DNA of 64,000 bases. Origin: Anaerolineae bacterium. GTDB lineage: Bacteria; Chloroflexota; Anaerolineae; Caldilineales; Caldilineaceae. Of this stretch, positions 7,187 to 50,224 are shown one piece after another. The stretch covers positions 124,001-188,000 of the forward strand of contig JAUIHI010000009.1 in NCBI GenBank assembly GCA_030432295.1, read 5' to 3'. The notes under the pieces were generated by a model. It ran no database searches and was not told the DNA's origin. It was given only the letters and a program-made list of their open reading frames with translations. Positions within the stretch are counted from its first letter, which is position 1. Every line of letters starts with the position of its first letter. The translations under genes and the position numbers were made by a program.

Positions 7187-7197
7187 TCTGGAATTAG

Positions 7198-7275
7198 GAC
7201 GCTGATTGCGCTGAAAAAGATGATTTACGCAGATTTTATCAGCGCAGATCAATTGTTTCAGCGAAATCAGCGTCC
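7198..7275. repeat. inverted repeat downstream of the response regulator
   Basis: GGACGCTGATTGCGCTGAAA is matched at the other end by TTTCAGCGAAATCAGCGTCC, with further CGCAGAT-like units between. It starts 12 bases after the regulator stop and fills most of the gap to the glycosyltransferase. Confidence 0.7.
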
Positions 7276-7313: not shown

Positions 7314-8054
7314 ATGAAACTCTCTGTGATTATGCCGGTCTACAATGAGCTTGCCACCCTGGAAGAGATTGTGCGTCGGGTGCAGGCGGTGGATTTGACC
7401 GTCAACAGCGATGGCTCGAATCCGATTATCGGTGAGCCAGTTGCCCTGGAACGGGAGATCGTCATTGTGGACGACGGCTCCACCGACGGCACCCGGGAGA
7501 TTCTGGATCGTTGGCAGACCGACGCCCACCCCGACATCCGCATCATTTTCCACGTGAACAACGGCGGCAAAGGCGCGGCCCTGCGCACGGGCTTTGAAGC
7601 CGCCACCGGCGATCTGCTGGTCATCCAGGACGCGGATTTGGAGTATGACCCCAGGGATTACATCAAACTGCTGGAGCCGATTCTGGAAGGGCGCACGTCG
7701 GTTGTCTACGGCAGCCGCTTTCTGGGCGGTCCCCGCTCCGCCATGAGCCTGGCCCACACCATCGGTAACAAAGGGGTCACACTCCTGACCAATCTGCTCT
7801 ACGGCACGATTCTCAGCGACATGGAAACCTGCTACAAATGTTTCCGCCGGGATGCGATCGCGGGGATGCCTCTGCGCAGCAAGCGTTTTGAGATCGAGCC
7901 GGAACTGACTGCCAAAATCCTCAAACGGGGCCATTCTATCTTCGAAGTCCCCATCAGCTACAATGGCCGGGAATTTCACGAAGGCAAAAAGCTCACCTGG
8001 CGGGATGGCTTCAGCGCCATCGCCACGCTGATCAAATACCGCTTCGTGGACTGA
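7314..8054 (+). CDS. family 2 glycosyltransferase (polyprenyl-phosphate sugar transferase type)
   Basis: This is a 246-residue GT-A glycosyltransferase related to dolichol-phosphate-mannose synthase. It shows the nucleotide-sugar motifs DDGSTDGT and QDADLEYDP, and it has no C-terminal membrane segments. Such enzymes load a sugar onto a polyprenyl phosphate at the inner face of the membrane. The next two genes are membrane proteins of the GT39-like and YfhO types, which would use the lipid-linked sugar on the outer face. The stop overlaps the next start by one base (TGATG), indicating translational coupling. The sugar donor is not predictable. Confidence 0.85.
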   Translation: MKLSVIMPVYNELATLEEIVRRVQAVDLTVNSDGSNPIIGEPVALEREIVIVDDGSTDGTREILDRWQTDAHPDIRIIFHVNNGGKGAALRTGFEAATGDLLVIQDADLEYDPRDYIKLLEPILEGRTSVVYGSRFLGGPRSAMSLAHTIGNKGVTLLTNLLYGTILSDMETCYKCFRRDAIAGMPLRSKRFEIEPELTAKILKRGHSIFEVPISYNGREFHEGKKLTWRDGFSAIATLIKYRFVD

Positions 8055-9799
8055 TGGAAGGCCACGTCTCCCCCCGCCCATTCCCTCTCGTTTTCTCCCC
8101 CGCCACCTTTGCCGGGGCGCAAGCCATTCTATTAACTTTGGCAAAACGGCTGGCTCTGCCCGTGCTCTGCCTGGGTGGATTTGCGCTGCGTCTGCATCTG
8201 CTCAGCGCCTGGCCCTTGCGGGAAGACGAGGCGATGTACAGCGTCTGGGCGCTCCATCTGTGGCGGGTCGATCCCTGGGCGCTCACCCTCTGGCCGGACA
8301 AACCGCCCCTTTTCCTCTGGCTGCTGGGGGGAACCTTCCAGCTTTTTGGCCCATCCGAGGCCGCAGCCCGGCTGCTCAATATCGCCGCCGACACATTGAC
8401 AATCGGCGTTGTGGCCGCTACGGGTCGTGTTCTGTGGAATCGCCGGGCCGGTATCTTCGCCGGGCTGGCCTATGCCCTCAGCCCCTTCGCCCTCAGCTTC
8501 GCACCTACCGCCTACACCGACCCGACTCTCGTCCTGTGGGGAATGCTCGCCCTCTACGCCAGCCTCACCCGTCGCTCCCTCTGGGCCGGACTTTTCCTGG
8601 CCGCGGCCATCGCCACCAAACAGCAGGGGCTTCTCTACGCGCCGCTGATTGTGGGCGTGCTTCTTTTAGCCACAAAGACACAAAGAGACGAAGAAGAAAA
8701 AGGCAAAAGGCAAAAGGGGAAGGCAAAAGTGTCGGCGCACCACTCCAGCCATTCGTTATTCACAATTCGCTATTCACCCCTTCGACAGGCTCAGGACAGC
8801 GCATTCGCTATTTTCCTTCTCGGCTTCGTCCTCCTCACCCTCCCCGTCCTCCTCTGGGACGCGTCCCGCTGGGCCGTGGCGCCTTCGCCCTGGGATTTAA
8901 GCGTGCGAAACTATGCCCCGCTCGCCCTGCTTCCGCCAGAAAATTGGTTACCCCGCCTGGCCCAATGGGCGAGTGTAGCGTGGAATCTGGCCGGTAGCTG
9001 GTGGGTGGTTGGGTATTGGATATTGGGTATTGGATATTGGGTGGGGACGAGACGACGCCCAATATTCAATATCCAATATCCAATACCGATCATTCTCATC
9101 TGGTCAGTTGGTTTCGTCGTTTCACACATCACCACCAGCGTCCAAATCTGGGATCGCTATCTGCTGCCCCTGGCCCCTGTGCTGGCGCTCTTTGTCGGGT
9201 GGATTGGGTTGCGCTCCACTTCCCATAGCAGGCGTCGGTTTCAACCGATGCTGGGTTGGTTCGCCGCGGCCATTCTGCCCCTTCTCCTGCTGCCCCCCGC
9301 GCTCACCGCAGCCCGCGGCGGCCTGCCCGTGGGCGCAGATCACGGCGACTACGCGGGGCTGAACGAGAGTGTCGCCTGGCTGCGCGCCAATGCGCCGGTG
9401 GATGCTATCATCTATCACCGGGACGTGAGCTGGCAGTTGCGCTTTGCCTTTTTCGCGGCCACACCCGACCAGCCCGACGCGTCTGAATTTGAGTTGCGCT
9501 GGTTTCCCAACGCGGTCTATCTGGCAGACAACGGGGCCAAAAGCCCGGAACGCCGCAAATTTCTCGTCGAACCCACCTGGGCTGCCGTCGATTCCGCGGC
9601 CCAGCGCCTGCAACAGCGGGCCATCGGCTGGCAAGAACGCCTGCGTGCCGGAAACTTCACCCTCTACGAACTGACCAGCCCGCCCTCTGCCCTCTGCGAC
9701 TGGTGTTTGTGCGTAGAAGCGACAACGGCCACATTCCCCGACTGGTTCGCCAAACCAGCATCTCAGCATCTCAGCATCCCGTCAGGAACGCTGCCATGA
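8054..9799 (+). CDS. GT39/ArnT-like membrane glycosyltransferase with two in-frame repeat insertions
   Basis: This is a 581-residue polytopic membrane protein. After the first membrane segment comes REDEAMYSVWAL, an acidic loop typical of PMT/ArnT-like GT-C transferases that move sugars from lipid carriers to targets outside the membrane. About ten hydrophobic segments follow, then a soluble C-terminal domain. Two stretches do not look like native protein: residues about 206-254 (highly charged, Lys/Glu/Gln-rich) and about 320-345 (GYWILGIGYW ... NIQYPIP). Both are translated DNA repeats that stay in frame. The stop overlaps the next start (ATGA). Confidence 0.75.
   Translation: MEGHVSPRPFPLVFSPATFAGAQAILLTLAKRLALPVLCLGGFALRLHLLSAWPLREDEAMYSVWALHLWRVDPWALTLWPDKPPLFLWLLGGTFQLFGPSEAAARLLNIAADTLTIGVVAATGRVLWNRRAGIFAGLAYALSPFALSFAPTAYTDPTLVLWGMLALYASLTRRSLWAGLFLAAAIATKQQGLLYAPLIVGVLLLATKTQRDEEEKGKRQKGKAKVSAHHSSHSLFTIRYSPLRQAQDSAFAIFLLGFVLLTLPVLLWDASRWAVAPSPWDLSVRNYAPLALLPPENWLPRLAQWASVAWNLAGSWWVVGYWILGIGYWVGTRRRPIFNIQYPIPIILIWSVGFVVSHITTSVQIWDRYLLPLAPVLALFVGWIGLRSTSHSRRRFQPMLGWFAAAILPLLLLPPALTAARGGLPVGADHGDYAGLNESVAWLRANAPVDAIIYHRDVSWQLRFAFFAATPDQPDASEFELRWFPNAVYLADNGAKSPERRKFLVEPTWAAVDSAAQRLQQRAIGWQERLRAGNFTLYELTSPPSALCDWCLCVEATTATFPDWFAKPASQHLSIPSGTLP
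8671..8816. repeat. repeat mosaic inside the GT39-like gene
   Basis: The stretch joins CACAAAG units, AGGCAAA units (7-nt period), ATTCGTTATTCACAATTCGC-type units and a CTTCGACAGGCTCAGGACAG word. It adds roughly 48 low-complexity residues to the encoded protein with no stop or frameshift. Confidence 0.7.
9008..9087. repeat. TATTGGG-type 7-nt inverted repeat inside the GT39-like gene
   Basis: A left array of TATTGGG/TATTGGA words (9012-9041) faces the reverse-complement array (9058-9087), matching at 27 of 30 bases, over a GACGAGACGACG core. It is read through in frame as GYWILGIGYW and NIQYPIP. Related copies lie at 10448, 11008, 22443, 42685 and 43473. Confidence 0.9.
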
Positions 9800-12669
9800 C
9801 CACCCACCACCGCGCCCGCACCTTTCGCGCCCACGCGTCCGCCGCCCTCCTCCTGGCCGTCTTTGTGCTGCTGCTTTTTGCCCGCCTGCTCTTTACAGAC
9901 CGGGTGCTGGCTAGCGGGGATATCCTGCACTATTTCTACCCCTACCGGGACTACGCGGCCGCGGCCCTGCGGGACGGCCGCATCCCCCTCTGGAATCCGT
10001 ACATTTTCGGCGGCGCACCCTTTCTCGCCAATCCGCAAGCCGCGGTGCTCTATCCCCTGCACTGGCCGCTGAGTTGGCTGCCTGTGACCGCACAAATCTA
10101 TTGGAGCGCGGCCCTCCACGCCTGGATTCTGGCTCTGGGCGGCTATGCGCTGATGCGGCGGCTGGGAAGCGGCTGGCTGGCGGGTGTGGTCACTGGGCTG
10201 GTACTGGCGGGCAGCGGCTTCTACGGCGGGATGCTCGGTCACCTCAACCAGATGAACGGCGCGGCCTGGCTGCCGTGGCTTCTTTGGGTGGTGACTGGAG
10301 ACGAGGGACGGCAGACCGCAGACCGCGCAATTCGCAATTCGCAACTCGCGATTCGCACCAGCCTTTTTGCACTGTTCGTTTGTCTGTCGCTGCTGGCTGG
10401 GCATACACAAACCGCCTACATCAATCTGTTCGGCGTCGGCGTAATCGGCATTGGGTATTGGATATTGGATATTGGGCGGCGACAACGACACTTCTCAATA
10501 TCCAATATCCAATACCTACTACCCTTCCTCCTCATCTACGGCATCGGAACCGGCCTTGCTCTCCTCCTCTCCGCCGTGCAACTGCTGCCTACGCTGGAAC
10601 TGAGCGGGCTTGGGCTGCGCAGCGGTGGACTGAGCTATCAGGAAGTGACCAGCTTCAGTCTGCGCCCGTTGCTGCTGGCGTGGACGCTGCTGCCATCCTA
10701 CGGTCTGCGGGATTTGAGCGTTGTCTTCGGCACACTGGGCTATACCGAATTCGTGGCTTCGATTGGAACGGTCGGCCTGCTGCTGGCCGCGCTCGGTCTG
10801 TGGAAGGGGCGGGGCAGCGATGGCTGGAACAGGCGCGTCTGGTGGATGGGCGTCGGCTTTGCCGTGCTGGGCCTCTTCCTGGCTTTGGGTCGCTGGAACC
10901 CGGCCTACTATCTGCTCTACAAATTCGTCCCCGGCTTCGATCTCTTCCGCACCCCCGCTCGCTGGATGATGCTCTATACCCTCGGCGTGGCGATTCTGGC
11001 GGGTGAGGGTATTGGGTATTGGGTATTGGGTATTTCGCGCCGTCAACGTCACTTCTCAATATCTAATATCCAATACCCAATACCGGCCCTTTTCACTCTC
11101 GCAGTCATTATTCTCCTCTCCGCCGATCTCCTCCTCTCGGCCCTTTCCCTCCCCCATACCCATCCCACCGCGCCCCAGGCCGTCTCCGACGTGCGCACCG
11201 CGCCGGCCCATCTGCTCACCGACGGGGAGCGGGTTTTGCACCCCGCCGCGATGGGACGCTTTCTGAGTATGAGCACCATCACTTTTGACCCCGGCGATAT
11301 GGCCGACTGGCGACGCATTTTTCGCGAGAGCGATCCGCCCCAACTGGACGAGGCCGCTTTCCGTGAATTTGTCATCGCCCTCAAAGCCCAGGAGATTCTG
11401 GCCCCCAACCTGCCCCTGCTCTGGCGCATCCCCGCAGCGGACGGCTTCGACGGCGGCGTCCTGCCCCTGGACCGCTACAACCGTTTTCTGGAGCTGTTCA
11501 TCCCGCCGGACCAGCTCGTGCCCGATGGCCGTCTGCGCGAACAGGTGAAGCGCATCCCGCCCGCGGCCCTGCTCGACCTGATGGACATTCGCTACGTCAT
11601 CACCGACAAAGTGCAGGACCTCTGGTTCGAGGGCGTCTACTACGACCGGCAGATCGGCGCACAATTAAGCGCAGATCTGCTCCCTCCTCCAGAGTGGGGG
11701 AGGGCTGGGGTGGGGGTTTCAGTTGCAGTTGACAGACCTTTTGAAGCCACAGAAATTCGGGTGATCGGTGCGCTGGTTGGGGACTCCGCGGCGCTGGCAG
11801 GGCTGGCCGACAAAGCGCTGCCGCTGGTTTCGGTGACGGCATACGCGGGGGGGCAGACGATCCCTTTACACGCCATCACCGGCGGCGGTGGCGCGGGTGC
11901 TGACTTTGCCGACAGCCGGTTGGACACTCCGCTGGCTGGCTCCGCTGGCGCAACCGTCGCCTTCCGGGATGTGGACGGCGGCCAGCAGGAGTATCTGGCC
12001 CGGCTTCCTCTGGCAGCGCCGACGACGCCTGAGTCGCTCCATTTTTCGCTTCTGTCGGACGCACCGCCGGGAGTGACGGTCACAATTCAGGCAGTAACCC
12101 TCTACGACGAGCGCACGGATACTTTCATCCCGCTTCTGCCCAGCGACCGGGGCGACTTCCGGCTGGTGCATAGCGGGGATGTGAAAATTTACGAGCGAAT
12201 GGATGGGCCGGGGCGGGTTTCGCTGGTTACTTCGGCTCTGGCCGCGGCGGAGCCGGACGACGCGCTGGCCGATTTACAAACAGGCCAACAGACGGTTGTA
12301 GAAGCGGCCCCGGCAATAGTGGCCGGGTGGGGGTTGACCGGTGGCACACCCGGCACAGCCCAACTCACTGCCTACGCGCCAGAGCGAATCGCCGTTGCAA
12401 CAGAAAGCGATAGTCCCGCGCTGCTTGTCCTGCGCGATGCCTTCTATCCGGGCTGGAACGCGACTATCGACGGCGCGCCTGCCGAAATCTACCCGGTAGA
12501 CGTTCTCTTCCGCGGTGTGGCCCTGCCTGCCGGGGCGCACGAAGTACTCTTCTTCTACGCTCCACCGGCCTGGCGCTGGGGTCGCATTCTGAGCGGTGGG
12601 GGAATTGTATTCTGGCTGATACTTCTGGGCTGGGGCTGGTCACGACGGCGCGCGGTGGCTGTGGTATAA
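9796..12669 (+). CDS. YfhO family membrane protein with several in-frame repeats
   Basis: This is a 957-residue integral membrane protein of the YfhO family, whose members help glycosylate surface polymers such as teichoic acids. The N-terminal region (IPLWNPYIFGGAPFLANPQ) is the family hallmark. About a dozen membrane helices are followed by a large extracytoplasmic beta-rich domain from about residue 500. I start it at the ATG at 9796, whose ATGA overlaps the stop of the previous gene. Four DNA-repeat stretches are translated: about 10301-10358, 10448-10517, 11008-11084 and 11681-11728. Two of them encode almost the same peptide (IGYW-L-I-RRQRHFSISNIQY). They fall in loops between hydrophobic segments, so the protein may still fold. 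Confidence 0.8.
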   Translation: MTTHHRARTFRAHASAALLLAVFVLLLFARLLFTDRVLASGDILHYFYPYRDYAAAALRDGRIPLWNPYIFGGAPFLANPQAAVLYPLHWPLSWLPVTAQIYWSAALHAWILALGGYALMRRLGSGWLAGVVTGLVLAGSGFYGGMLGHLNQMNGAAWLPWLLWVVTGDEGRQTADRAIRNSQLAIRTSLFALFVCLSLLAGHTQTAYINLFGVGVIGIGYWILDIGRRQRHFSISNIQYLLPFLLIYGIGTGLALLLSAVQLLPTLELSGLGLRSGGLSYQEVTSFSLRPLLLAWTLLPSYGLRDLSVVFGTLGYTEFVASIGTVGLLLAALGLWKGRGSDGWNRRVWWMGVGFAVLGLFLALGRWNPAYYLLYKFVPGFDLFRTPARWMMLYTLGVAILAGEGIGYWVLGISRRQRHFSISNIQYPIPALFTLAVIILLSADLLLSALSLPHTHPTAPQAVSDVRTAPAHLLTDGERVLHPAAMGRFLSMSTITFDPGDMADWRRIFRESDPPQLDEAAFREFVIALKAQEILAPNLPLLWRIPAADGFDGGVLPLDRYNRFLELFIPPDQLVPDGRLREQVKRIPPAALLDLMDIRYVITDKVQDLWFEGVYYDRQIGAQLSADLLPPPEWGRAGVGVSVAVDRPFEATEIRVIGALVGDSAALAGLADKALPLVSVTAYAGGQTIPLHAITGGGGAGADFADSRLDTPLAGSAGATVAFRDVDGGQQEYLARLPLAAPTTPESLHFSLLSDAPPGVTVTIQAVTLYDERTDTFIPLLPSDRGDFRLVHSGDVKIYERMDGPGRVSLVTSALAAAEPDDALADLQTGQQTVVEAAPAIVAGWGLTGGTPGTAQLTAYAPERIAVATESDSPALLVLRDAFYPGWNATIDGAPAEIYPVDVLFRGVALPAGAHEVLFFYAPPAWRWGRILSGGGIVFWLILLGWGWSRRRAVAVV
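10301..10358. repeat. GCAATTC-type 7-nt array inside yfhO-like gene
   Basis: GCAGACC words are followed by GCAATTC, GCAATTC, GCAACTC, GCGATTC. The array is translated as AIRNSQLAIR in a loop. The complementary word family occurs between genes at 53308-53380. Confidence 0.8.
10448..10517. repeat. TATTGGA-type 7-nt inverted repeat inside yfhO-like gene
   Basis: The left array (10454-10476) and right array (10496-10516) are complementary. The core reads CGGCGACAACGACACTTCT and is close to the core of the next copy at 11008. Confidence 0.9.
11008..11084. repeat. TATTGGG-type 7-nt inverted repeat inside yfhO-like gene, second copy
   Basis: Three to four TATTGGG words at 11009-11034 face the complementary array at 11057-11084. 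The core GCCGTCAACGTCACTTCT differs from the copy at 10448 by a few bases. The reading frame is kept. Confidence 0.9.
11681..11728. repeat. GGGGGAGGGCTGGGGTGGGG-type short inverted repeat inside yfhO-like gene
   Basis: CTCCCTCCTCCAGAGTGGGG is followed by GGAGGGCTGGGGTGGGGG, giving a short purine/pyrimidine inverted repeat. It translates to LLPPPEWGRAGVGVS. It resembles a common intergenic repeat word of Chloroflexota, from memory only. Confidence 0.5.
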
Positions 12670-12670
12670 T
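12662..12670 (+). promoter_or_regulatory. extended -10 promoter candidate before the AmaP-like gene
   Basis: TGGTATAAT carries the extended -10 TG and a perfect TATAAT. No good -35 is seen 17 bases upstream. The stop codon of the YfhO gene lies within it. Confidence 0.4.
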
Positions 12671-12672
12671 CG

Positions 12673-12705
12673 AGAGGTTCGACTTTTCCGAAAAGTCGAA
12701 CCTCT
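12673..12705. repeat. AGAGGTTCGACTTTT hairpin, copy 2 of 4
   Basis: Perfect 15-base arms with a CCG loop. A CTCTTTTT tract follows at about 12708-12715, so on the plus strand it can also act as a terminator for the glycan operon. The same hairpin family is at 4792, 24535 and 37455. Confidence 0.75.
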
Positions 12706-12732
12706 GACTCTTTTTGGCAAGCAGGAGGCGTT

Positions 12733-17212: not shown

Positions 17213-17387
17213 CCTATTGCGTACTGCGTACTGCGTATTGCGTAGGTAGTGACGTCGACGGCACGATTGGGAGATGGCGGGATGTGAGAAAAGCCACTGA
17301 CGAATATTCTGGCAACATCACTACACGCCAACCCGCAAAAAGCACCTGATCAACACTACTTACGCAATACGCAGCACGCAATACATC
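17213..17387. repeat. GCGTACT-type 7-nt inverted repeat
   Basis: The left array TATTGCGTACTGCGTACTGC (from 17215) is answered by ACGCAATACGCAGCACGCAA (from 17362), with an unrelated core of about 115 bases. It fills the gap between the E2 and E3 genes. Confidence 0.8.
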
Positions 17388-17396
17388 TGCGAATAA

Positions 17397-18647
17397 TTAT
17401 CCCCAATTTTCCAACACTTGCACTACTCTCCCCACAAATCCATCCGCCTCTGCGCCGTCGAGAATCCGGTGATCGAAGGAGAAGCTGAGATAACACATCG
17501 GGCGGATGACGATAGCGTCGTCGGCGCTGGGCAGCAGGGGGTGCCCGCCGCTGCGCACGACGGGCCGTTTTTCAATTTTGCCGATGCCCAGAATCCCCGC
17601 CTGGGGCTGGTTGATGATGGGCGTGCCCAGCAGACTGCCGCTGACGCCGTGATTTGTGACGGTAAATGTGCCGCCCTGCAGCTCGTCCGGGCTGAGTTTG
17701 TTGGCCCGTGCCCGCTCGGCCAGGTCATTGACAGCCCGGCTCAGGCCTGCCAGATTCAGTTCGTCTGCGTCCCGGATGACGGGGACGAGCAGCCCATCGG
17801 GGACGGCGACAGCAATCCCCACGTGGATGCGCGGATGCAACAACAATCCCTCGGCGGTGAAGGAACTGTTCACCTGGGGATTGGCCCGCAATGCCTCGGC
17901 CACAGCGGCCACAAAATAGGGGGTGAAAGTCAGGTCGATGCCTTTGGCCGCGTACGCCGCTTTGTGGGCCTCCCGATGGCGCACCACCGCCGTCATATCC
18001 GCCTCGAAAAGTGCCATCACATGCGGGCTGGTACGCACGCTGCGCTCCATATGCTCGGCGATGGCCCGGCGCATGGGAGTCAGGGATTGGAGAGTGGGGA
18101 CTGGGGACTGGGGGGAGGGCGTCGTCTTCCCAGTCTCCAATCCCTTGTCCCCAGTCCCCAAAAAGTTCTCTACATCCTTCTTCGTCACCCGCCCGTGCAA
18201 CCCCGTGCCGGTGATGCTGTCCAAGTCCAGGCTGTGTTCCGCGGCCATCCGCGCCACGACAGGGCTGACGAACTCCCGGCCCGTGGGTTTGGGGATTGGG
18301 GATTGGGGATTGGGGATTGGAGATTGGGGATTGGGGACTGGGGACTGCTCACTGGTCACTGGGGACTGTTCAGTGCCCACTGACGGCTGTTCAGTGACCA
18401 CTGCCTCACCCGGCGCGCCGATATAGCCGATGACTGTACCGACCCGTACGGTCTGCCCTTCGCTGGCGGTAATCTGTAGGAGCGTACCCGCCGCGGGCGC
18501 GGGGATTTCTGTGTCGATTTTGTCCGTGCTGATCTCCAGCACAATCTCCTGGCGTTCCACCCGTTCGCCGGGCTGCTTCAACCAGCGGGAGACGGTTCCT
18601 TCCACAACCGTTTCGCCCAGTTGGGGCATTTTGATGGGGGTGGGCAT
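17397..18647 (-). CDS. dihydrolipoamide acyltransferase (E2) with repeat-derived linkers
   Basis: This is the 416-residue core of a 2-oxo-acid dehydrogenase complex and transfers acyl groups from lipoamide to CoA. Domains in order: lipoyl domain (Lys43 in STDKIDTEI), linker about 83-123, E3-binding domain 126-163 (SPVVARMAAEHSLDL ... GRVTKKDVENFL), linker 164-190, catalytic domain to the end with SFDHRILDGA. The DHR-x-x-DG form replaces the usual HHR, as in many E2s. Both linkers are translated 7-nt DNA repeats (PNPQSPI cycles). The ATG at 18647 has AAGGA 8 bases upstream. No E1 gene is adjacent; a second E2 with E1 subunits is at 25518-28843. Confidence 0.9.
   Translation of the reverse strand: MPTPIKMPQLGETVVEGTVSRWLKQPGERVERQEIVLEISTDKIDTEIPAPAAGTLLQITASEGQTVRVGTVIGYIGAPGEAVVTEQPSVGTEQSPVTSEQSPVPNPQSPIPNPQSPIPKPTGREFVSPVVARMAAEHSLDLDSITGTGLHGRVTKKDVENFLGTGDKGLETGKTTPSPQSPVPTLQSLTPMRRAIAEHMERSVRTSPHVMALFEADMTAVVRHREAHKAAYAAKGIDLTFTPYFVAAVAEALRANPQVNSSFTAEGLLLHPRIHVGIAVAVPDGLLVPVIRDADELNLAGLSRAVNDLAERARANKLSPDELQGGTFTVTNHGVSGSLLGTPIINQPQAGILGIGKIEKRPVVRSGGHPLLPSADDAIVIRPMCYLSFSFDHRILDGAEADGFVGRVVQVLENWG
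18083..18161. repeat. GGGGACT-type 7-nt inverted repeat encoding E2 linker 2
   Basis: GGGGACTGGGGACTGGGG and CCAGTCTCCAATCCC plus TCCCCAGTCCCC face each other around GGGCGTCGTC. It is read in frame as the segment between the E3-binding and catalytic domains (about residues 164-190). Confidence 0.85.
18290..18401. repeat. GGGGATT-type 7-nt array encoding E2 linker 1
   Basis: Six to seven GGGGATT words run into GGGGACT and CACTGGT words and a GGGGACTGTTCAGTG stretch. On the coding strand this reads TEQSPV, SEQSPV, PNPQSPI, PNPQSPI, i.e. a 7-residue cycle of the kind expected from a 7-nt word. Confidence 0.9.
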
Positions 18648-18689
18648 GGGGTGTGTCCTTTTGCTTCTTCCGTCAATATTTGGTCGAAG

Positions 18690-18720
18690 AAACGTGAGAT
18701 CACCGATTGCGCTCACGTTT
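18690..18720. repeat. AAACGTGAG inverted repeat upstream of E2
   Basis: AAACGTGAG and CTCACGTTT enclose a 13-base loop, and CACGTTTTGC continues the word. The word AACGTGAGATCA is shared with the perfect palindrome at 63082. Confidence 0.6.
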
Positions 18721-22409: not shown

Positions 22410-22442
22410 TTTTGGTTTTTCCTTCTCTCTTTAGGGGGAGAA

Positions 22443-22522
22443 AGATATTGGGTATTAGGTATTGGGCAGTGTCACGGTGAGTCATTGCCGACAAATATCT
22501 AATACCCAATATCCAATATCTT
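22443..22522. repeat. TATTGGG-type 7-nt inverted repeat, intergenic
   Basis: AGATATTGGGTATTAGGTAT and ATATCTAATACCCAATATCC face each other over a 30-base core. It begins exactly at the stop codon of the SDR gene and lies in the leader of the Gfo/Idh gene. It is an intergenic relative of the copies inside 8054-12669. Confidence 0.9.
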
Positions 22523-25427: not shown

Positions 25428-25514
25428 GAGGATAGAACGCGGATGACGCGGATTAGGCGGATAGCAACGGATTTATCAGCGCTAATCCGTCCTTTCCGCG
25501 TCATCCGCGTTCTA
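25428..25514. repeat. CGCGGAT-type inverted repeat
   Basis: AGAACGCGGATGACGCGGAT is mirrored by ATCCGTCCTTTCCGCGTCAT plus CCGCGTTCT. It fills the gap between the E2 stop (3 bases away) and the isomerase start. Confidence 0.85.
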
Positions 25515-25517
25515 TTT

Positions 25518-38269: not shown

Positions 38270-38282
38270 TCTTTGTTTTTGT

Positions 38283-38349
38283 AAACACGGATAGGAATGA
38301 ACACAGATAGAAGCGTTACAACTTCTGTGTTCGTTCCTATCCGTGTTTA
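38283..38349. repeat. inverted repeat between convergent genes
   Basis: AAACACGGATAGGAATGAAC plus ACAGA is matched by TCTGTGTTCGTTCCTATCCG plus TGTTT around CGTTACAA. The right end supplies the TAA stop of the convergent enolase-superfamily gene. Confidence 0.85.
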
Positions 38350-39408
38350 TAAACTCTCCCCCAGCATCTTCTCGTTGAGACGTATACCCAAACCCGGTGT
38401 ATCTGTAACCGCCAGATAGCCTTCCACCGCCTGGGGTTCATCCAGCCACAGGCGCTCCTGCCGGGTGCTGCGTTGTCCCGCAACCAGTTCGCCCAAATCG
38501 TCGCACAGCCCCGCGGCGATGATGTGCAGTCCCCAGATTTCCCCGCCCCGATGGGGAACCACCCGCGCGCCGCTCTGCGCTGCCAGTTCAATAATGCGCA
38601 GAGTGGCTGTAATCCCCCCACACCAGGTCACATCCGGCTGCCAAATGTCAAGCGCACCAGTCCGGGCAATCTCCCCAAAACCGTAGTGGGTGAACTCGTG
38701 TTCACCGCCCGCCAGTTGCACAGGCTTGATCCGCGGGCGCATACCGGCCTGCTCGGCCAGATGATCCGGGGTGAGGACATCCTCGAACCAGTACAGATTG
38801 TAGGGGGCCAGACGGCGGGCCATCTCTTCGGTCACTGCGGCATCCCAGGAGAGATAGCAGTCGGCCATCACCAGCGCGTCGTCGCCCAGATGCTGGCGGG
38901 CGGCTGTGGCAGATGCGATGGCTTTGTCGTAGTCAGCGGGGTCGCCTGTCCATCGGTGAGAAAATTTGTGGGCGGTGAAGCCCAATTCCCCGTGCCATTC
39001 CGGGTCGTTGCCTGTGGCGTAGGCCCGCACTTGGGGCCGCGCCAATCCGCCCAGCAGATCGTAGACCGGGCGATCCATCGCCTTGCCCAGCAGATCCCAC
39101 AGGGCCAGGTCCACACCGCTCAGGGCCATCACCCCCACACCCCGCCGTCCGTAGGGGATGGAGGCAAAGTAGAGATCGTCCCAGATGGCGGCGATGTCCT
39201 CCACACTCTCCACTGCGCGCCCGGTCAGCAACTCCCGAAAGTGGCCGTTGACAATCGGCAGACTGGCCTCCCCGCCGCCCCCATAGCCATAGCCGACAAC
39301 GCCTGTGTCGCTTTCCACCCGCACCACAATTTGCCAGAGCCGGGGCCGCCAGCCCCCTAATGTGTGTTGCCAGCGGGGGTAGTGGGCGGATACCTGTGCG
39401 ATTTTCAT
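38347..39408 (-). CDS. enolase-superfamily sugar-acid dehydratase (rhamnonate dehydratase-like)
   Basis: This is a 353-residue mandelate racemase/muconate lactonizing enzyme homologue. Metal ligands appear as Asp in MADCYLSWD, Glu in YWFEDVL and Glu in AGGEHEFTHYGF, with the general base His in VVPHRGGEIWG. GEHEF-THYGF and the ALDIWQPDVTWCGG stretch resemble L-rhamnonate dehydratase. It would dehydrate an aldonic acid to a 2-keto-3-deoxy acid, the substrate type of the aldolase and kinase at 51654-53305. AGGAG precedes the ATG. It is alone on the minus strand here. Confidence 0.83.
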   Translation of the reverse strand: MKIAQVSAHYPRWQHTLGGWRPRLWQIVVRVESDTGVVGYGYGGGGEASLPIVNGHFRELLTGRAVESVEDIAAIWDDLYFASIPYGRRGVGVMALSGVDLALWDLLGKAMDRPVYDLLGGLARPQVRAYATGNDPEWHGELGFTAHKFSHRWTGDPADYDKAIASATAARQHLGDDALVMADCYLSWDAAVTEEMARRLAPYNLYWFEDVLTPDHLAEQAGMRPRIKPVQLAGGEHEFTHYGFGEIARTGALDIWQPDVTWCGGITATLRIIELAAQSGARVVPHRGGEIWGLHIIAAGLCDDLGELVAGQRSTRQERLWLDEPQAVEGYLAVTDTPGLGIRLNEKMLGESL

Positions 39409-42697: not shown

Positions 42698-42848
42698 TAG
42701 ATATTTGGTTATCGGTATTGGATGCAGAGTTCAGAAATGTTATGCGTGCGAATCCTGGCCATTCGTGCCGCCCCGTCCCCTTCGTTCAGAGCAATTGATG
42801 TGAAGACAAGCCCAGCAACCACACGAGATATCCAATACCCAATACCCC
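42685..42848. repeat. TATTGGA-type inverted repeat spanning a gene boundary
   Basis: AGATATTGGATAGTAGATAT and GGTATTGGATG on the left and GATATCCAATACCCAATACC on the right enclose about 105 bases. The left arm encodes the end of the flippase, and the right arm encodes IQYPIP near the start of the DUF2079 protein. Confidence 0.8.
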
Positions 42849-45457
42849 ATTCCCTCTCCGATCCCTATCGGCTTCTCCTTCTGATCGCCATCCTTCTCTA
42901 TATTTGGATTTTCGCTGGCCTCGCCTTCGCCCAACACGCGGGGATGCGCACCCACAAGGCCGATCTGGGCCAGATGGATCAGGCCATCTGGAACACCAGC
43001 CAGGGCCGTTTTGTGGAGGAGGTGAAGGACGATTTCGTCTCTACCCGGCTGACCGATCACGTGGAGCCGATCTTCGCGCTGATCAGCCCGGTGCTCTGGC
43101 TGTGGGACGACGTGCGGGCGCTCCTGCTCCTGCAAGTGATCGCCGTGGCCCTGGGCGCGCTTCCCCTCTATGCGTTAGCCCTGGAAAAACTGGACCAGCT
43201 ACTCCCTGCGCACCAGCGCGCTCAAATCTGGCATAGGGAACCCCTGCAACAGATGACCCGCCCGCTGGCTCTGGCCGTGGCGTTGGGCTGGCTGCTCTCG
43301 CCCCAACTCCAGTCCGCGGTCCTGACCGAATTCCACGCCATCCCCTTGGCCGCGCCGCTGATCGTCTGGGCTTTCTGGGCCGCGGAGAAAAATCGCTGGC
43401 GACAATTCTTCGTGGCCGCGCTGCTGCTGGCCGCAGTCAAAGAAGAAGCTGCGCTCCTGGCCGCCGGCTTAGGGTTTTGGTGTTGGGTATTGGATGTTTC
43501 GAAGGCGAGACGACGACAATATCCAATACCCAATACCAAATACCTCATCTTCCCCCTCCTCGTCACGGGCTTCTCCCTCGCCTGGTTCTATCTTGCCACT
43601 TTCGTCATCGTCCCCGCCCACGCCGCGCAGGTCTATGGAGCCGCGGAGAGCGCCTATTTTCAGCGTTACGGCGCGCTGGGCAATTCACCGCTGGACATCG
43701 CCAGGAGCTTCTTCACCCAGCCGGGCGTTGTCTGGCAGATCGCCAGCGAACCGGCCCGGACCGCCTATCTCTGGCAACTGCTGGCCGGTTTTGGTCTCTT
43801 TGCCCTACTGGCGCCGGAGATTTTGTTGCTCTGCACGCCCGTCTTCCTCGCCAATCTGCTCAGCGCCTACCCGGCCCAATATTACGGCGAATTCCACTAC
43901 AGCGCGCCGATTGTGCCCTACTTTGCCGTGGCTGGGGTCTATGGGCTGGCCCGGCTCTGGCGCTGGCTGGGCCGCCGTTTTGCCGGGGAATCGGGCAGTT
44001 TCCAGCACCTGCCCGCAGCCAACGCCGGGGTAATGGCGCTGGTTTCAATCTTTACCAACAGCCGTTCCACCCTGCGCCCGTTGCTGGCCTGGGGGCTGGT
44101 GCTCTGGCTGCTCGTCTGGGCGGGAATCGGCTATGCCAACGCGGGCCGGGGACCGGGCGGCGGACGCTACGATCCCACGCCGGTCACTGCCCACCACCGG
44201 CTACTGGACCGTTTCACCAGCCAGATTCCTGCGGACGCGGCTGTCACCGCCACAGCCGCGGTCCACCCCCACCTCAGCCATCGGCGCTACATCTACCAGT
44301 TTCCCTTCGGGCTGGACGCTGCGGTTCCCGCTGAGTGGGCGCTGCTGGATGTGACCAGCAATACGGATATGGCCCCCGGCGATGTCAAGGCGAAAGTCGA
44401 TGAAATGCTGGCAAGCGACTGGGGTGTGGCTGACGGCGCAGACGGTTTTCTCCTCCTCCAGCGCGGCGTAGCGGAGAAGACAATTCCCGGCGCGTTCTTC
44501 AGTTTTGCGCGAGAACTTAACGCAGAGGCGCAGAGACGCAGAGACGCAGAGAAGATCGTCAACGATCCCCCACTTAACAATTCACCATTCACTATTCACC
44601 ATTCACTATTTTCTTTTGGCCCTCTCACTTTCCTCGGCCTGGACTTAACCGATTGGCCCCGCTGGCGACAGACAAAAGTGACGACCCTCTGGCGGGTGGA
44701 GGAGGGCTTCGATGCGAGTGTTGCACCGCTGGTTGAGATTCGTACCCCTTCCGGTGGGATAATCCTCGACAACGCCCAACTCCCCTCGCCTGCGCTGGTC
44801 TGGTATCCCCCGCAAAGTTGGCAGCTGGGTGAAGTCATCCGGCTCGAATCGCTCTGGCTCTTTCTGCCCGGGGAATGGGGCGTAGCTGTGGGGATGACCG
44901 ACGGAACGCCAGCGCTGGCCGGGGCATTCAGCCGCCAGTCCGGTGGCACACTGGCACGGGATGAATTGGGAGAAGCTTTGGCCGAGGGAGAACCAGCTGG
45001 CTGGTTTGCTGGGCCGACAGGCGAACGGCTTTCTGTGACGGCCCGCCTCGACCCATCCGTCCCCGCGGGGCAGGTGGCGAACCTACGCCTGGAATGGGGC
45101 ACAGAGACGCCGGAACTGCTGGCCCGCCATCAGATTTTTGTCCATCTGCGCGGGGCAGAGGGCAACATCGCCCAAAACGACGGCAGCCCCCGCTATTTCG
45201 TCCCTGTCGCGCCCGGTCCGGTGACAGCCGACTGGCGACAGCTTGCCATTCCCACCGACCTGCCGCCGGGCAGCTATCCGGTCGTCATCGGCGTCTACGA
45301 TCCCGCCAACGGGGAGCGGCTGGCCTTTTTTGGCCCGGATGGACAGCCGACCAGCAACGAACTAATTGTCGGCAGTGTACGCGTGCAGCCCCCCCTCGTC
45401 CCGGATCAGGCCTGTGCGCTCATTCCGCTTGCCTGTGCCAGCCAGCCGATTCGCTAA
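42722..45457 (+). CDS. DUF2079 domain membrane protein with in-frame repeats
   Basis: This is a 911-residue membrane protein with a DUF2079 core (KADLGQMDQAIWNTSQGRFV, VEPIFALISP), about ten helices and a large extracytoplasmic C-terminal half. DUF2079 proteins are GT-C-like, with function unproved. The start is uncertain: the first 45 residues before the first helix contain repeat-derived IQYPIP. Two more repeats are read through: 43473-43544 (FWCWVLDV ... QYPIPNTKY) and 44514-44613 (AEAQRRRDAEK ... NNSPFTIHHSL). It follows the flippase directly. Confidence 0.72.
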   Translation: MQSSEMLCVRILAIRAAPSPSFRAIDVKTSPATTRDIQYPIPHSLSDPYRLLLLIAILLYIWIFAGLAFAQHAGMRTHKADLGQMDQAIWNTSQGRFVEEVKDDFVSTRLTDHVEPIFALISPVLWLWDDVRALLLLQVIAVALGALPLYALALEKLDQLLPAHQRAQIWHREPLQQMTRPLALAVALGWLLSPQLQSAVLTEFHAIPLAAPLIVWAFWAAEKNRWRQFFVAALLLAAVKEEAALLAAGLGFWCWVLDVSKARRRQYPIPNTKYLIFPLLVTGFSLAWFYLATFVIVPAHAAQVYGAAESAYFQRYGALGNSPLDIARSFFTQPGVVWQIASEPARTAYLWQLLAGFGLFALLAPEILLLCTPVFLANLLSAYPAQYYGEFHYSAPIVPYFAVAGVYGLARLWRWLGRRFAGESGSFQHLPAANAGVMALVSIFTNSRSTLRPLLAWGLVLWLLVWAGIGYANAGRGPGGGRYDPTPVTAHHRLLDRFTSQIPADAAVTATAAVHPHLSHRRYIYQFPFGLDAAVPAEWALLDVTSNTDMAPGDVKAKVDEMLASDWGVADGADGFLLLQRGVAEKTIPGAFFSFARELNAEAQRRRDAEKIVNDPPLNNSPFTIHHSLFSFGPLTFLGLDLTDWPRWRQTKVTTLWRVEEGFDASVAPLVEIRTPSGGIILDNAQLPSPALVWYPPQSWQLGEVIRLESLWLFLPGEWGVAVGMTDGTPALAGAFSRQSGGTLARDELGEALAEGEPAGWFAGPTGERLSVTARLDPSVPAGQVANLRLEWGTETPELLARHQIFVHLRGAEGNIAQNDGSPRYFVPVAPGPVTADWRQLAIPTDLPPGSYPVVIGVYDPANGERLAFFGPDGQPTSNELIVGSVRVQPPLVPDQACALIPLACASQPIR
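43473..43544. repeat. TATTGGG-type 7-nt inverted repeat inside the DUF2079 gene
   Basis: GGTGTTGGGTATTGGATGTT and CAATATCCAATACCCAATAC face each other over GAAGGCGAGACGACGA. The frame is kept. Same peptide type as in the GT39-like and YfhO genes. Confidence 0.88.
44514..44613. repeat. ACGCAGAG and TTCACCA arrays inside the DUF2079 gene
   Basis: An 8-nt array (CGCAGAGA units) is followed by a 7-nt array of TTCACCA/TTCACTA words. The two encode a charged and then a Ser/His/Thr-rich stretch. The TTCACTA word is stop-free only in the orientation present. Confidence 0.82.
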
Positions 45458-49374: not shown

Positions 49375-50151
49375 ATGGCCGAACGCAGCCGTACCTATCG
49401 CACCCAGGCGGTCATTCTGCGCCGCCGGGACTACGCCGACGCCGACCGCATTCTGACGGTCTATACCCCGCGCTTGGGCAAAGTCGAACTGATCGCCAAA
49501 GGGGTGCGCAAGACCACCAGCCGCAAAGCCGGTCATTTGGAACTTTTCAGCCACGCCAGTCTGCTGGTGGCTCAGGCCCGCACCTGGGGCATTGTCACCG
49601 AAGTGACGACTGTCGAAAGCTTCCTCCACCTGCGCAGCGATCTGGACCGCATCGGCTGGGCGGGCTATGCCTGCGAACTGGTGGACGCTTTTGGCAGCGC
49701 TGAGGACGAAAGCCAGCAGTTGTGGGAGATGCTGCTCTTTGCCCTGCGGGTGCTGGACAGCGGCGAAGAACAGATCGACCTCTTCCTGCGCTGGTTCGAG
49801 TTGCATCTGCTCAGTCTGGTCGGCTTTCAGCCAGAGCTGTTCAATTGTCTGGCCTGTGGGGATGAGTTGCAGGCCGTCACCAATTATTTGAGTCTGGCCG
49901 CGGGGGGTGTATTCTGTCCCCGCTGCGGCGAAGCTGCCGGTGGCACGGAACCGATTGAACCGGGCCTGCTCAAAGTCCTGCGCCACATCCAGCGCAGTTC
50001 GTGGACAGATGTGCGGGCGGTGCAACTGCGTCCCCAGACGATCCAGGCCGTCGAGAGTATTCTCTACCGCTATCTGGTTCTGGTGCTGGAACGCCAGTTG
50101 CGCTCGGTGGATTTTGTGCGCCGGTTGCGCTCGGCACGTAATCATTCATAG
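49375..50151 (+). CDS. recO: DNA repair protein RecO
   Basis: This is a 258-residue recombination mediator that, with RecF and RecR, loads RecA onto SSB-coated single strands. The OB-fold start (YRTQAVILRRRDYADADRI, split) is followed by a helical domain and a zinc finger (NCLACG ... FCPRCG). The ATG at 49375 places the OB-fold immediately after the start. A coupled group (MazG-like, membrane protein) follows after a hairpin repeat. Confidence 0.93.
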   Translation: MAERSRTYRTQAVILRRRDYADADRILTVYTPRLGKVELIAKGVRKTTSRKAGHLELFSHASLLVAQARTWGIVTEVTTVESFLHLRSDLDRIGWAGYACELVDAFGSAEDESQQLWEMLLFALRVLDSGEEQIDLFLRWFELHLLSLVGFQPELFNCLACGDELQAVTNYLSLAAGGVFCPRCGEAAGGTEPIEPGLLKVLRHIQRSSWTDVRAVQLRPQTIQAVESILYRYLVLVLERQLRSVDFVRRLRSARNHS

Positions 50152-50212
50152 GTGCGGTTTCCAACCGCACAATCTCGGAATATTCCCATTTATGCGGTTA
50201 GAAACCGCATCT
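50152..50212. repeat. TGCGGTT palindromes after recO
   Basis: GTGCGGTTTCCAACCGCAC (with one mismatch free stem) and ATGCGGTTAGAAACCGCAT form two adjacent hairpins using the same word. They begin right after the recO stop. Confidence 0.75.
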
Positions 50213-50224
50213 ACGGCACTGGCA

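Follow-up and report, generated by a model that had tools for sequence, protein, structure and literature searches.

Hairpins of tandem heptamer words in membrane protein loops and intergenic gaps of a Chloroflexota genome: arm words change, place and at times core persist

How do three unrelated membrane proteins, encoded within one 64-kb stretch of a Chloroflexota genome (hereafter ‘the window’), come to carry much the same short peptide, read in each case from an inverted DNA repeat? A preliminary description placed TATTGGG/TATTGGA inverted repeats in a GT39-like gene, twice in a YfhO-type gene and in a DUF2079 gene, and took them to be one peptide inserted in frame. The repeats are present at those places (Table 1), the arms of the four coding hairpins being 86–93% complementary, with single-strand DNA folding giving z-scores of -6.3 to -8.8 per site against shuffles. 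All four lie in uninterrupted frames, with the peptides GYWILGIGYW..NIQYPIP in the GT39-like protein, GIGYWILDIG..NIQYLLP and GIGYWVLGIS..NIQYPIP in the YfhO-type protein, and FWCWVLDV..YPIPNTKYLI in the DUF2079 protein; in Pfam searches PMT_2 and DUF2079 score above cut-off, YfhO below its own. To this extent the description stands: the palindromic repeat is dispersed, several membrane proteins read through it, and its period-7 peptide is the same in any frame.

Within the window TATTGGRTATTGGR occurs 13 times, against 0.00 in shuffles. The coding copies keep their arms and mostly lack the paired inner stem, with YfhO loop 2 retaining ACGTCACT; an Rfam search of the window returned tRNA only, and no known RNA family for the hairpins. 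Five features in Table 1 were absent from the preliminary description: the intergenic TATTGGR copy, the half element and the arrays of mixed or other words in each of the three genes. Long GGGATTG/GGGACTG arrays also occupy positions 18083-18403 of the window, inside a gene on the minus strand (17397-18716), where they encode the in-frame peptide QSPIPNPQSPIPNP.

Table 1. Hairpins, word arrays and host genes in the window (positions within the 64-kb stretch)
Feature	Position	Arms	Strand	Basis
GT39-like (PMT_2) membrane protein gene	8054..9799		+	reading frame, Pfam
Second repeat stretch, mixed words, in GT39-like gene	about 8671-8810			
TATTGGR hairpin in GT39-like gene	9012..9087	9012-9041/9058-9087	.	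fold, arm match, orthologue comparison
YfhO-type membrane protein gene	9796..12669		+	
Other-word arrays, GACCGCA then GCAATTC, third YfhO loop	10307..10357		+	
TATTGGR hairpin, YfhO loop 1	10447..10524	10447-10474/10496-10523	.	
TATTGGR hairpin, YfhO loop 2	11008..11084	11008-11034/11058-11084	.	
Hairpin of another word (GCGTATT), ending in GGTAGTGACG core motif	17221..17384		.	
Intergenic TATTGGR hairpin	22442..22522		.	
DUF2079 membrane protein gene	42722..45457		+	
Half element, single arm, near start of DUF2079 frame	42828..42847		-	
TATTGGR hairpin in DUF2079 gene	43471..43545	43471-43498/43518-43545	.	
Other-word array ATTCACC/ATTCACT in DUF2079 gene	44580..44610		+	

The source genome (G000; 6.7 Mb) was compared with relatives labelled G001–G006, G017, G018 and G020, the last being Caldilineaceae ACE_CHL9; two metagenome-assembled genomes, G004 and G006, bear the label Litorilinea aerophila, and G002 is a Chloroflexi genome from groundwater. 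We infer that the window belongs to the genus of the Litorilinea genomes. Detailed analysis covered 1.09 of the 6.7 Mb, about one sixth of the genome, with genes called by a simple hexamer score that missed the GT39 site.

Whatever the frame, a tandem repeat encodes a single cyclic peptide if its unit length is not a multiple of three. The lack of stop codons in these words had been read as design; as it turns out, 50% of heptamer word classes (58% at a GC content of 0.55) are stop-free on both strands, as are 17 of 36 intergenic period-7 hairpin arms, and with half of the classes qualifying, the words seen in genes look like those that a filter has let through. Stop-freeness of the gene-borne words is a filter, not design. 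Neither is the phenomenon confined to three proteins: in-frame period-7 arrays of various words occur in 31 of 793 predicted genes (1.09 Mb, a sample enriched for TATTGG loci), against 6, 7 and 3 genes for periods 6, 8 and 9, and two unselected contigs hold ten genes with period-7 arrays and at most three for any other period. Polytopic proteins make up 9 of the 31 array genes against 51 of the 793 (p 6e-5) in this sample chosen for TATTGG loci; on the two unselected contigs the shares are 2/10 and 36/592 (p 0.12), and we do not retain the enrichment.

Beyond the window, the hairpin pattern matches 50 times in the genome (overlapping matches counted) and TATTGGRTATTGGR occurs 234 times, against none for the reversed pattern. 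Thirty aligned copies give the consensus GnTATTGGGTATTGGATATTTCGTAGnGAnG...CnTCACTACnAAATATCCAATACCCAATAnC, and an inner stem, GTAGTGACG...CGTCACTAC, is often common to copies in the Litorilinea-type genus; the GTAGTGACG motif alone is only threefold enriched in the analysed G000 sequence, and the GT39 and DUF2079 loops contain no close match to the inner-stem consensus. With the stem laid out as 32 pairs, 85.7% of cells across the 30 copies pair, compared with 32–41% in slid controls; 19 of the 32 pairs have changed on both sides, and cells with both sides changed number 67 against 36 ± 4.6 in shuffled alignments, a value reached in 0 of 500 shuffles. The best copies, for example in G002, are close to perfect hairpins. 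Near one contig end (C25, 131-200) some ten TATTGGG units stand in a run.

The preliminary description had proposed a search for the arms across Chloroflexota. TATTGGR arms do appear in many genomes, with loops that are unrelated outside the genus; we accordingly reject a single homologous element across the phylum, the same arm words enclosing other loops in other lineages. In the phylum as a whole such hairpins are rare, a stricter related pattern being found in 1 of 251 genomes. One genome labelled Bacteroidetes likewise has TATTGGR-armed hairpins with unrelated loops.

Where the hairpins sit contradicts the claim that insertion is tolerated anywhere. A census of hairpins with arms of at least 16 nt, at admittedly arbitrary thresholds, over 864 kb (the window plus two contigs) found 204, of which 167 are intergenic, 24 lie across a gene end and 13 (14 if the GT39 site is counted) fall within genes, in DNA that is 89% coding; one 400-kb contig holds 75, against 3 in Markov sequence. 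They form many families, their arms often of period 7 or 8. Word hairpins are found in 19% of gaps that are tandem or convergent but in 6% of those between divergent genes; in tandem gaps the hairpin usually begins no more than 20 nt past the upstream stop codon. Most TATTGGR copies, too, lie between genes, up against a stop codon. Palindromes occur in roughly one in three gaps of at least 20 bp, and at least fifteen further palindromic families are seen in intergenic gaps (e.g. TTGTATACACGGATAGGAAGGAACACGGATA, CGTATCGAAACCAAGCG, AAAGTCCCCGGCACTT, CCTTCCGGGAAGCGGCCA and GTTCGACTTTT), among them examples on contigs C16 and C18 and at window positions 7197-7275, 12670-12719, 25432-25515, 38278-38353 and 50149-50213.

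Turning to the coding sites, an added element of about 75 nt should lengthen a loop by 25 residues. Comparing array-bearing with array-free loops, the two groups being assigned by eye from alignments, we see medians of 25 v 22.5, 36 v 29 and 30.5 v 39.5 residues, that is, differences of +2.5, +7 and -9 (one-sided p 0.27, 0.005 and 0.96). In YfhO, GT39 and DUF2079 orthologues from the genus and from two further genera (G017, G018), heptamer arrays occupy several of the same loops, often spelled with different words (GATTGGG, AAGATTG, GCAATTC, AATTCAC, AAAAGGC); in more distant relatives the array positions hold ordinary loops. On the similar loop lengths and the same-site words of orthologues we reject a clean insertion of the Rickettsia type, and with it both the ‘inserted’ and the ‘same’ peptide of the preliminary description: removing the 75-nt element would not rejoin the flanks cleanly and would instead delete the loop. 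What remains of the likeness to Rickettsia palindromic elements is a palindrome read in frame in several proteins. In an AlphaFold model of YfhO (mean pLDDT 76.5, 19 sequences) both cores fall in low-confidence inter-helix loops; helix ends carry the left arms, and the right arms coincide with the start of the following helix or shortly precede it. To judge from these alignments, loop sequence at the coding sites looks to have been taken over in place, not added to.

The comparison of single sites, judged by eye at a handful of places and between separate species (YfhO identity 69–82% within the genus) with intermediate states absent, shows words changing whilst the place persists. The DUF2079 loop has TATTGGG in G000, GATTGGG in G001 and G004, and GATTGGG together with ATTCGCT in G002; the adjoining RRR loop is nonetheless kept despite the different arm words (ARRR in G000 and G001, GRRR in G004). 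The GT39 loop of G006 carries TATTGGG on its left and AATTCAC on its right, and the same site in G017 has the TGG-rich TGGGTTGGGTTGG. In a YfhO-like gene on contig C27, G004 and G006 keep the right arm of ACGAAATA..CCAATACCC kind, with GATTGGG/GACTGGG on the left. One intergenic gap holds TATTGGG 7-mer hairpins in G000, G002 and G006, and in G001 and G003 8-mer AGATTGGG and AGATTGAG hairpins around GTAGTG; the gap of the window's intergenic TATTGGR hairpin is filled in G005 by a different sequence with ACGCAGC-type words. An automated census of orthologous gaps aligns through inherited hairpins and is uninformative for these.

Cores, too, can outlast their arms. The AGTGRCG motif, taken from the TATTGGR family but chosen after the GATTGGR list had been seen, is present in 5 of 42 GATTGGR hairpins of the genus, few copies in all (shuffle mean 0.24; at least 5 in 0 of 5000), and the family core also occurs with GCGTATT-type arms; another pattern of word switch, GCGTANT, occurred too seldom to be of use. 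The balance of TATTGGR to GATTGGR hairpins (overlapping matches counted) moves from 50/8 in G000 through 25/19 in G002 and 18/21 in G004 to 0/7 in G005 and 0/66 in G017. In G000 the core of YfhO loop 1 matches that of its own loop 2 at 18 of 22 positions (score 14; 4 against loop 1 of G004 or G006), which suggests copying between loops: loop 1 has probably been overwritten by a copy of loop 2.

What process would account for this? We lean, by a little, towards word-array hairpins that are kept by errors of replication and recombination, at sites that tolerate them: past the ends of genes and in inter-helix loops. Observed are the dispersal, the covariation, the bias in position, the different words at one site, the core common to different arm words and one probable copy of a loop onto another; the mutational steps, and the absence of a dedicated enzyme, we infer. 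The unit would be two arms of tandem 7-nt words around a short GC-rich core, dispersed in one genome. Slippage would alter the number of words and spread word variants along an arm; template switching between arms, a documented cause of arm matching (PMC8794818, PMC8604942, PMC7202029) and also of multi-base changes in genes (PMC8794818, PMC8604942), would preserve their complementarity; and ectopic exchange with other arrays would copy cores or swap arms for another word. Hairpins would pile up where little harm is done, just downstream of stop codons, and in loops the left arm (YWVLGIG) may extend a helix, the core make a loop that is short and basic, and the next helix follow on from the right arm (NIQYPIP). 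Against this account, the passage from 7 to 8 in word length at one gap is hard to obtain by slippage alone, and the hairpins there could be independent replacements; it also leaves unexplained the recurrence of the same words, with other loops, in distant lineages.

A more doubtful reading takes the hairpins for a class of element with interchangeable arm words, in which core and site are kept and both arms rewritten (even from period 7 to period 8) by active copying, at gene ends and in coding loops, each genome settling on its own dominant word.

That the family is a non-autonomous, REP- or MITE-like element, moved by a Y1/RAYT or other transposase with in-frame coding copies surviving, we consider unlikely. 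There are many dispersed copies with a common inner stem, presence and absence vary among species of one genus, Y1_Tnp genes are found in 11 of 13 genomes, and for one hairpin of an unrelated word orthologues show the site both occupied and in compact form. Yet a genome with 25 hairpin matches, G002, gave no Y1_Tnp hit (its assembly is 74% complete), and G005, which does give such hits, lacks the hairpin; the strongest Y1_Tnp gene of G000 is split and without an adjoining TATTGGR hairpin, the consensus of 30 copies carries no conserved GTAG or CGTC end, and orthologous coding loops are similar in length with and without arrays. No association with a transposase was found, Y1_Tnp hits bearing no relation to copy number and flanks being checked for one G000 gene and two relatives' genes; lacking that correlation, RAYT mobilisation in particular seems unlikely. 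Among the same-genus species compared, no base-resolved empty site was seen for the TATTGGR family. A Y1_Tnp transposase gene in two pieces about 1 kb apart lies on contig C16 of G000 (406308-407583; L275).

Selection for putative RNA structures at gene 3' ends (protection of the transcript, attenuation or termination), the coding copies being accidental, would be in keeping with the strong covariation, with the bias towards 3' ends and avoidance of divergent gaps, and with different hairpin families filling the same gap in different species; template switching, however, can match arms without selection, promoter avoidance yields the same position bias, and arms also occur in protein loops that have no 3' end. 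We regard this as improbable. It is very improbable, in our estimate, that simple repeats grew independently, by slippage alone, out of TGG-rich coding stretches in permissive loops and have no tie to the intergenic family: relatives are indeed TGG-rich at the GT39 site, as in G017, and neither the GT39 nor the DUF2079 loop is close to the inner-stem consensus, but inverted second arms are present, the core of YfhO loop 2 resembles the family, and one loop seems copied from another. An assembly artefact, named earlier as a possible refutation, is dismissed, since independently assembled genomes agree: their orthologues show identical or related arrays at matching codons.

Several bacterial groups have an excess of heptamer repeats for which an accepted cause is wanting. 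The orthologous loops and gaps described here form site series in which the word has changed and the place, at times also the core, is constant, so that the origin of such arrays becomes testable in near relatives. Heptamer arrays are moreover able to supply loop sequence to membrane proteins, with a warning for annotation: identical peptides in unrelated proteins stem here from DNA words, not from common domains.

Earlier work on cyanobacterial heptamers exists. In the searchable literature, outside which many subscription papers fall, we found neither a description of copies in Chloroflexota nor one of arms changing word about a constant core; heptamer arrays elsewhere are already known, and what appears undescribed is the change of arm word around a kept core in coding loops. 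The G-rich repeats of Nostoc and Xanthomonas, GGGGA(T/C)T and GGGNATC, are period-7, dispersed and mostly intergenic (about a third intragenic in Nostoc), lying between aligned genes and scarce between divergent ones (PMC4692102). By the same marks, genome-wide period-7 arrays with an intergenic bias, the present arrays belong beside them, and GGGGATT itself occurs in this genome; the accessible account differs in reporting few inverted pairs, and describes neither in-place word change nor a shared core (PMC4692102). QSPIPNP, the peptide of the GATTGGG word, is listed for another purpose in a Fischerella aspartate kinase and a Nostoc efflux permease, the heptamer-encoded peptides being reported as gluten-like hits and their repeat origin passing unremarked in the accessible text (PMC8430993). 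TAACTGA repeats of Beggiatoaceae, Cyanobacteria and Bacteroidetes resemble ours as heptamer arrays of disparate lineages, some translated in frame as the 7-residue cycle LSVISYQ, but are direct, almost never inverted, and mostly sit just upstream of start codons (PMC4679880).

Among palindromic systems, Rickettsia palindromic elements are likewise translated in frame in several proteins (PMC3733652), whereas here no insert adds length to the loops and orthologues differ in arm word. REP elements with RAYTs share short palindromes, high copy number and a position near gene ends (PMC3733652), but the consensus here lacks a GTAG/CGTC tag and no Y1_Tnp association was found. The PARCELs, too, are palindromic DNA encoding repeats in membrane-targeted proteins; these, however, are built on a 25-residue tandem motif (PMC2996958), in place of the heptamer words, single hairpin and 7-residue cycles seen in the present family.
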